This document shows positions 21,923 to 35,485 of a stretch of DNA of 35,508 nucleotides, piece after piece. The stretch spans positions 1 to 35,508 of the forward strand of contig JAKPNM010000027.1 in assembly GCA_029548395.1 (NCBI GenBank), written 5' to 3'. The translations under genes and the position numbers were made by a program. The notes below the pieces were generated by a model. That model made no database searches, was not told the DNA's origin, and was given only the letters and a program-made list of their open reading frames with translations. Numbering within the stretch: the stretch's first letter is position 1; each line of letters opens with the position of its first letter. This DNA comes from Bacillota bacterium. Lineage in GTDB: Bacteria; Bacillota; Clostridia; Christensenellales; Aristaeellaceae.

Positions 21923-21951
21923 TTGACAAGGGTATGCCGGACTTCTATAAT
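21923..21951 (+). promoter_or_regulatory. Perfect-consensus sigma-A promoter for the mgtE leader
   Basis: TTGACA (21923-21928) - 17 nt - TATAAT (21946-21951). Confidence 0.9.
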
Positions 21952-21986
21952 GATGCTACTTCTTAAAGAAAAGGAGGTGGCCACTC

Positions 21987-22064
21987 ATGGATGACGGCGC
22001 TAGATGCCAGGCGAACGAAGGCGTGCCGCGATCGCGACGCATCTGTGATGCGCTGCCCGCATAA
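21987..22064 (+). CDS. Candidate leader peptide (uORF) MDDGARCQANEGVPRSRRICDALPA
   Basis: ATG preceded by AAGGAGGTGG at standard spacing; 25 codons ending TAA; inside the mgtE 5' leader. Confidence 0.5.
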   Translation: MDDGARCQANEGVPRSRRICDALPA

Positions 22065-22155
22065 CCCCTTCATCTGACATTTATCGCGTCAATGGCACTT
22101 GCGAACCCGGCAAGCTGCTTTTTGTGTGCGAATGAATGATTTGGAGGTGATACCG

Positions 22156-23502
22156 ATGGACTGGGAGAGAATTGAAGAGAAGCTGGATCAGCTTCTTGCC
22201 CAAAGCCGCCACGGCCAGCTGCGCGGCGCCCTGATGATGCTGAACCCTGTAGATATCGCAGGGTACATGAAAAAGCTGGACAAGGAAAAACTGCTGCTGT
22301 TGTTCCGCATTCTGCCCAAGGATGTCTCGGCGGATGTGTTCAGCTATATGGATTCCGATCAGCGTCAGATGCTGGTGGAAAGCATCGCGGACGCTGAGAT
22401 CAGCGCCCTGATTGATGAGATGTTCGTGGATGACGCGGTGGACTTTCTGGAGGAGCTGCCGGCCAACGCTGTCAAGCGCGTGCTGCAGAACACCGATCCC
22501 CGCACCCGCGCCATCATCAACCAGTTCCTCAAGTATCCGGAGAATTCTGCGGGCAGCCTGATGACCATTGAGTACTGTGAGGTCAGCCAGGACATGAACG
22601 TGCGCGATGCCCTGCAGAGCATCAAGGAAACCGGGGTGGACAAGGAAACGGTCTATACCCTGTACATGCTTGACAGCCAGCGGCACCTGATCGGCTCCAT
22701 CCCGCTGCACAAGGCCCTGGTGGTCAGTGAGGATACCGCGCTGGCCAAGCTCATGGAACCCGGCACCATTTCTGTCAACACCCTGGATGACCAGGAGGTG
22801 GTTGCGGATACCGTGCGCAAGTACCACCTGCTGTCCATCCCGGTGGTGGACGGTGAAGGCCGCATGGTGGGCATCATCACCAGCGACGACATCATGGACG
22901 TCATTGAAGCGGAGAACACGGAGGACATTCAAAAGATGTCCGGTTTGGCTCCCTCAGAGCTGCCTTACTTCAAATCCAAGCTGCTCGTCCTGGCCGGCAA
23001 CCGCCTGCCCTGGCTGATGGTCCTGATGTTCACCTCCATCGTGTCGGGCGCGATCATCGCGCGTTTTGAAAGCGTGCTGGCCATCAACATCCTGCTGTCC
23101 GCCTCCATCCCCATGCTGATGGATACCGGCGGCAACTGCGGCCAGCAGGCCTCCACGCTGATCATTCGCGGCATCGCTTTGGGCGAGGTCAAGTTCTCTG
23201 ATTTCTTCCGCGTCCTGTGGACGGAATTCCGCGTGGGCATTCTGATTGGCATCGCGCTGTCATCGGTCACCTTTGTCCGTCTGCTGCTGATCAACCAGGC
23301 TACGCCCATTATGTCGGCTGTGATCTCCGCCAGCCTGTTTTGCACAGTGGTCATCGCCAAGTCGATCGGCTGCATCTTGCCGCTATTGGCCCAGCGTATC
23401 CGGGTGGACCCGGCTTTGGCGGCTTCGCCCCTGATCACCACCATTGTGGACGCTTGTAGCCTGTTTATTTTCTTCACCATCGCCTCCAATTTTATTTTGT
23501 AA
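22156..23502 (+). CDS. mgtE: Magnesium transporter MgtE
   Basis: MgtE N-domain (DAVDFLEELPANAVKRVL), CBS pair, MDTGGNCGQQASTLIIRGIALGE membrane signature; GGAGGTGA RBS before ATG 22156. Confidence 0.96.
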   Translation: MDWERIEEKLDQLLAQSRHGQLRGALMMLNPVDIAGYMKKLDKEKLLLLFRILPKDVSADVFSYMDSDQRQMLVESIADAEISALIDEMFVDDAVDFLEELPANAVKRVLQNTDPRTRAIINQFLKYPENSAGSLMTIEYCEVSQDMNVRDALQSIKETGVDKETVYTLYMLDSQRHLIGSIPLHKALVVSEDTALAKLMEPGTISVNTLDDQEVVADTVRKYHLLSIPVVDGEGRMVGIITSDDIMDVIEAENTEDIQKMSGLAPSELPYFKSKLLVLAGNRLPWLMVLMFTSIVSGAIIARFESVLAINILLSASIPMLMDTGGNCGQQASTLIIRGIALGEVKFSDFFRVLWTEFRVGILIGIALSSVTFVRLLLINQATPIMSAVISASLFCTVVIAKSIGCILPLLAQRIRVDPALAASPLITTIVDACSLFIFFTIASNFIL

Positions 23503-35327: not shown

Positions 35328-35404
35328 TGGTAGCGGCGGTCGGATTCGAACCAACGACACTCCGGGTATGAACCGAATGCTCTAGCCAACTGAGCTACGC
35401 CGCC
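35328..35404 (-). tRNA. tRNA-Met (CAT), elongator
   Basis: GGCGGCGTAGCTCAGTTGGCTAGAGCATTCGGTTCATACCCGGAGTGTCGTTGGTTCGAATCCGACCGCCGCTACCA folds as a cloverleaf; anticodon loop TTCATAC; encoded CCA. Confidence 0.95.
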
Positions 35405-35408
35405 ATCT

Positions 35409-35485
<77 letters not shown>

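Follow-up and report, generated by a model that had tools for sequence, protein, structure and literature searches.

The magnesium transporter gene mgtE at positions 22156–23502 of the 35,508-nt stretch of DNA analysed here ('the window') is preceded by a leader with its own promoter, a short open reading frame (uORF) and several segments that can pair with one another. The question raised by this locus is whether the uORF is a genuine gene and, if so, whether its translation controls the transporter. MgtE transports Mg2+ in a wide range of bacteria, and the only leader control that we found described for it in the literature searched is the M-box. The leader examined here looks like an undescribed switch, in which the ribosome decides whether the transporter is made.

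Organization of the mgtE leader

All leader features lie on the plus strand. A sigma-70 promoter that agrees with the consensus at 12 of 12 positions (TTGACA-N17-TATAAT, 21923–21951), and that is likewise present in leaders of the same genus, is followed by the Shine–Dalgarno (SD) sequence AAGGAGGTGG (21971–21980), kept in nearly all leaders. The uORF itself comprises 25 codons (21987–22064) and encodes MDDGARCQANEGVPRSRRICDALPA, a peptide conserved upstream of mgtE. The transporter gene has a separate SD sequence, GGAGGTG (22143–22149), which is predicted to be paired by an upstream segment (segment B, below), and its product matches TIGR00400 (443 bits, E 1e-132), PF01769, PF03448 and PF00571. 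The promoter, the strong ribosome-binding site (RBS), the 25-codon uORF and mgtE with its own RBS are all found in the sequence at the positions given by a first-pass annotation of this DNA.

That annotation reported no M-box and asked for an Rfam search, which agrees: the M-box model (RF00380) has no match in the window at the gathering score and none in the leader at E ≤ 10. Nothing credible was obtained for the leader among 4227 Rfam families, at gathering or relaxed threshold, and we therefore reject an identity as M-box or other riboswitch. The short words said to recall the M-box core loosely are likewise unsupported. Across the whole window Rfam matches only two tRNAs; two adjacent tRNA-Met (CAT) genes are located at 35328–35485 on the minus strand. 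Two leader peptides were compared with Pfam and NCBIfam, and neither had a match at E ≤ 1. The peptide was thus not found in Rfam, Pfam or NCBIfam, and we found no description of it in the literature searched.

The uORF is conserved as a coding sequence

A DNA search of 100 relatives showed that conservation is strongest over the RBS and the uORF's first half. Using a sequence-only model (R1), we searched 300 genomes of the host's family, the genomes compared being mostly metagenome assemblies, and obtained matches in 93 of them, representing 27 of 50 genera at E ≤ 0.01. All strong R1 matches lie upstream of mgtE; weak matches away from mgtE (E above ~4e-5) were discounted because they fall inside coding genes. 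In the 84 leaders examined in full, mgtE always follows, 140–387 nt downstream of the uORF start. These leaders encode 81 distinct peptides of 21–34 residues, with one weak outlier that is longer.

The peptide core shared in the family is M-[DEGS]-[DE]-G-x-R-[CS]-xxx-[DE]-G-V-P-R-S. Between genera, pN/pS over codons 2–16 is 0.55 in the uORF frame, compared with 1.89 and 1.13 in the other two frames. Pro14 is invariant (76/76) while the wobble bases of its codon are free, Ser16 codons swap between the TCN (TCG/TCA) and AGY (AGT/AGC) sets, and the insertions and deletions seen within the core have lengths divisible by three. These features mark the uORF as a genuine coding sequence under selection: by this comparison of sequences it is not a chance ORF, and selection acts on it at the codon level. 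Neither lack of conservation among relatives nor a known riboswitch that explains the structure, outcomes that the first-pass annotation had named as speaking against its proposal, was observed. Its proposal is supported in part: the uORF is conserved, overlaps alternative RNA structure and very probably controls mgtE. Its comparison of the MDD start with acidic Mg2+ leader peptides also extends well beyond the window, with Asp or Glu at position 2, 3 or 5 in 110 of 110 leaders, a set that includes diverged leaders picked by eye.

A rare arginine codon is nearly invariant

The strongest feature of the leader, absent from the first-pass annotation, is the codon used for Arg15. This rare, slow codon, CGA (22029–22031), is found in all 72 leaders that have Arg15. 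A second rare arginine codon, AGA at codon 6 (22002–22004), is used in 62 of the 68 leaders with Arg6. With the window and the mgtE genes of the leader loci as codon-usage references, CGA accounts for 4.9% and 1.8% of arginine codons, respectively, and AGA for 3.2% and 3.6%. Beyond codon 16 of the uORF, CGC dominates the arginine codons, as is usual. Among 27 diverged leaders chosen by inspection, 23 have CGA within the first 19 codons, where it makes up 27 of 50 arginine codons. We also noted two similar, repeat-like dicodons, Arg6-Cys/Ser7 (22002–22007, AGA-TGC or CGA-AGT) and Arg15-Ser16 (22029–22034, CGA-TCG or CGA-AGT).

In predicted folds, the CGA codon has its A unpaired with a probability of 0.70, compared with a uORF mean of 0.35, so that base pairing has no obvious role in explaining why CGA is conserved, although a nucleotide-level reason is possible. 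At codon 6, by contrast, pairing in helix P1 (below) may account for the preference for AGA. No tRNA-Arg(UCG) was found among the 44 tRNAs of the one relative checked (97% complete), whose tRNA-Arg anticodons are TCT, CCT, ACG and CCG; CGA must therefore be decoded by inosine–adenosine wobble. In most bacteria tRNA-Arg(ICG) decodes CGU, CGC and CGA (PMC3711424). CGA is decoded more slowly than CGC and CGU in Salmonella (PMC4046918) and is the most inhibitory codon in a yeast uORF (PMC6755093). A tentative extension, which we consider doubtful, is that decoding of the single obligatory CGA, by inosine34–adenosine wobble and with no cognate tRNA-Arg(UCG), itself sets the timing of the switch or serves as its sensor; Mg2+-dependent decoding at this one slow codon would then be read, and not a ligand or the level of charged tRNA.

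Predicted mutually exclusive helices in the leader

Three pairings are predicted as the leader RNA lengthens. Before segment B has been made, the uORF SD and start region (21976–21993) is predicted to pair with uORF codons 18–24 (22040–22057) to form helix S1 (p 0.91–0.96), the assignment of the 3' strand being based on the predicted fold and on cross-genus complementarity. Once segment B (22067–22091) has been made, it is predicted to pair with segment A, which spans uORF codons 2–12 (21992–22021), forming helix P1 (p 0.74–0.99). In the window, an inner hairpin, CGCATC-TGT-GATGCG (22038–22052, p 0.95, present when P1 forms), and the terminator stand beside P1. In the full-length window RNA, segment B is the switch strand, predicted to pair both with the mgtE SD (22067–22072 with 22142–22147, p 0.59) and with sequence just beyond the T-run. 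On these models the three helices, S1, P1 and B with the mgtE RBS, are predicted to exclude one another and to involve the RBS of the transporter gene or the terminator.

The intrinsic-terminator-like hairpin and its T-run (22094–22123), a candidate attenuator, also precede mgtE in most relatives. The hairpin noted in the first-pass annotation is present but longer than described, with arms at 22094–22102 and 22110–22119, one bulged C and a T-run at 22119–22123. The outer helix proposed there (GTGCCGCGAT with ATCGC..GGCAC) fared less well: it needs a G at the wobble position of codon 13, where most leaders of the genus have A, T or C. It is also not the favoured fold, in which uORF codons 2–12 pair with 22067–22091 instead. 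A T-run terminator is missing in some leaders. In five leaders of genus g38 (L096, L098 and L101–L103) it is replaced by strong pairing between B (CGCCTTCAC-like) and the mgtE SD (GTGAAGGCG). Most leaders across genera also carry a GTGTGCG/GCGTGTG-like stretch after the T-run (22124–22131 in the window), which pairs with B in the full-length window RNA; its conservation is not fully accounted for by that pairing.

Complementarity was tested genus by genus against dinucleotide-shuffled partners. The A:B pairing is enriched over shuffles in 18 of 18 genera, S1 scores at or below zero in 17 of 17 and B with the mgtE RBS is enriched in 16 of 18, with Stouffer values of -7.9, -7.5 and -5.1, respectively, compared with +1.5 for a control pairing; these values ignore relatedness, which inflates them. 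Cognate A:B energies beat permutations between genera, about 2% of permutations being equally good. One S1 pair shows a compensatory change, U-A to C-G, at codon 2 in the genus set. The stability of the whole leader fold is not unusual (z -0.56), so that folding energy alone would make a weak case and the argument rests on comparison. What exceeds chance in these comparisons is the conservation of the peptide and the specific complementarities, not whole-leader stability.

Ribosome position and the proposed direction of switching

The peptide, its CGA codon, the complementarities and the association with mgtE are all observed, and our favoured explanation of them, to which we assign a probability of roughly 0.6, is that the region is a ribosome-mediated attenuator of mgtE: a translated leader with an obligatory slow codon, working in the manner of mgtL and mgtQ. 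The leader peptide of about 25 residues would be translated while the leader RNA is being made, and the position of the ribosome would select among the successive helices S1, P1 and B paired with the mgtE RBS, the last state being joined by the terminator stem in some lineages. A ribosome that reaches the slow CGA would pause there and cover segment A, leaving B free to favour the terminator or sequestration of the RBS, and mgtE expression would be low. Should translation instead break off at an early stage, at the acidic N-terminal codons in low Mg2+ as for MgtL and mgtQ, A would capture B, mgtE would be read and translated and expression would be high.

We modelled the paused ribosome by masking its footprint at CGA. 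P1 then falls in 15 of 18 genera, pairing of B with the mgtE RBS rises in 12 of 18 and the terminator probability increases modestly, from 0.45 to 0.52 as a genus average. In these folding models, masking favours a direction in which a ribosome that is present gives low expression and a ribosome that is lost gives high expression. Predicted accessibility of the mgtE RBS changes little with ribosome position and shows no consistent effect. In the window the terminator is predicted in every state computed, with P1 present or absent; in this genome P1 thus does not act as a simple antiterminator, and the choice of direction is one that we infer. We also rejected a simple antiterminator role of P1 across all lineages, because P1 and the terminator are predicted together in most leaders, including that of the window. 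They are mutually exclusive only in some leaders, for example L028 and L032.

The best-surviving alternative, which we regard as unlikely, keeps the ribosome but reverses its effect: MDDGxRCxxxEGVPR would be an arrest peptide that stalls the ribosome at Pro14–Arg15 when Mg2+ or some other signal calls for it, and mgtE would be turned on by this stalled ribosome, rather than by its loss, through a block of S1 or cover of B. Conservation that reaches PRS and stops there is typical of arrest peptides, and in the window a ribosome at CGA blocks S1 and leaves the outer part of P1 possible (p 0.65–0.86). Across genera, however, the same ribosome lowers P1 rather than raising it, and the diverged leaders retain CGA but have lost most of the peptide, which fits a strict arrest peptide poorly. 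A new Mg2+ riboswitch aptamer that overlaps the ORF by chance, with the peptide as a by-product, is improbable. The arrangement of P1, inner hairpin and terminator is reminiscent of a riboswitch, and the uORF has several conserved nucleotides, but the restriction of pN/pS below 1 to one frame, the serine codon swaps, the free Pro14 wobble and the indels in threes all speak for coding, the conserved CGA has a mostly unpaired third base and none of the 4227 Rfam families matches. Least probable is a peptide that acts in trans, for instance on the MgtE protein, from a leader that is not an attenuator: its sequence is conserved, but its conserved part coincides with the alternative RNA pairings, S1 shapes the C-terminal half, which varies, the whole peptide is hydrophilic and of small size, and the rare codon is conserved independently of the surrounding residues.

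Magnesium, the M-box and the reach of the leader

Mg2+ is the likely signal for the proposed attenuator, because the gene encodes a Mg2+ transporter and M-boxes precede mgtE elsewhere in the family. No M-box was found in the genome that carries this leader; 31 of the 300 family genomes have one, ahead of mgtE in genera g12 and g17 and ahead of mgtA-type P-type ATPases in others. In g17 an M-box, a diverged copy of the uORF and mgtE follow one another in series. Such serial loci are L125 (1501–1900), L118, L121, L126–L131 and L133–L142, with uORFs that begin MDAGSRCDTG... or MDAGGSSYGTYADHIRR....

The mgtE carriers described are uncultured gut and digester Clostridia, and the leader spans many genera. 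By inspection of 100 family genomes, it is found on mgtE genes that are first in their operon, have about 53% identity or more and have an intact start; the leader of G028 was recognised by eye. Family mgtE genes at 45–52% identity have diverged uORFs of similar design (e.g. VDDHGHDAGVPRS, VDDYGHDTGIPRSS, MDAGSSSGVPVGRRR and MDAGSTGSIPGRSW), and at least eight further families within the order (f10, f11, f12, f15, f23, f26, f27 and f33) likewise have diverged uORFs ahead of mgtE. A class-wide sample gave no match outside the order. Named records that match the leader pattern belong to uncultured Clostridia, Christensenellaceae, Ca. Pullichristensenella and Ca. Faecivicinus; mgtE is visible in 31 of 32, and the remaining record ends too early to show it. 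Among about 131 non-mgtE genes, none has an SD-preceded uORF with an acidic residue 2 and CGA, four raw matches being mgtE leaders.

Several loci depart from the usual arrangement. On one contig of G007 (C8; L008, L020 and L078), tandem mgtE paralogues each have a separate uORF leader, the second encoding a diverged peptide (MVSGEKCRAVEDEPRGSS), and in genus g38 (L094 and L101–L103) a single leader stands ahead of two tandem mgtE genes. In L308 (family f16, genome G074), an SD-preceded ORF, MKVHLCDGDDIGRSSVARCLA, with CGA at codon 13 lies 386 nt upstream of mgtE; this ORF may be remotely related to the leader or may have arisen by chance.

If the attenuator reading is correct, an order-wide leader-peptide attenuator replaces or accompanies the M-box, and control of Mg2+ import through translation, known for mgtA and mgtB of enterobacteria, has arisen in Clostridia for mgtE as well. 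Because CGA is so nearly constant, it offers a single-nucleotide test of codon decoding speed as a sensor.

Comparison with known leaders

The M-box (RF00380) is related to this leader by the genes served, since M-boxes of the family also precede mgtE and mgtA-type genes. It differs in being absent from this leader and genome, and the leader here is predicted, from codon-level selection, to be translated. The M-box and uORF can also occur in series elsewhere: in Mycobacterium tuberculosis a conserved uORF2 (Rv1805A) with a conserved proline lies between an M-box leader and the controlled genes (PMC12810186). Genus g17 has M-box, uORF and mgtE in the same order, a likeness of layout for which we claim no sequence relation, and the mycobacterial peptide is genus-specific (PMC12810186).

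Closer parallels are found in translated leaders. As far as its sequence indicates, the leader has a conserved short ORF between promoter and transporter gene, the arrangement of the mgtL/mgtQ kind. MgtL, the leader peptide of mgtA, has acidic residues near its N-terminus, and translation of the leader lowers transporter expression (PMC11282234). The likeness consists of a leader peptide, acidic near its N-terminus, in the 5' leader of a Mg2+ transporter gene; the differences are that MgtL involves Rho-dependent termination and an EPDP motif (PMC11282234), whereas the mgtE leader combines the rare CGA with one conserved proline, Pro14, and with an intrinsic-terminator-like hairpin.

The mgtQ ORF, a translation-aborting ORF upstream of mgtB in Salmonella, has acidic codons 2 and 5, and its leader forms stems 1:2 and 3:4 or 2:3, with the transporter RBS in 3:4 (PMC8092293). 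The reported logic is low expression with the ribosome present and high expression with the ribosome lost (PMC8092293). Both systems place a short ORF with acidic codons at positions 2/5 before a Mg2+ transporter gene, and S1, P1 and B with the mgtE RBS share the stem logic of mgtQ. The present leader differs in serving MgtE rather than a P-type ATPase, in occurring in other bacteria with its own promoter and terminator, in the length of its ORF (21–34 residues, compared with 8 for mgtQ) and in its nearly invariant CGA. The likeness to mgtL and mgtQ is thus one of architecture and acidic codons, between very short peptides and transporter genes of different families.
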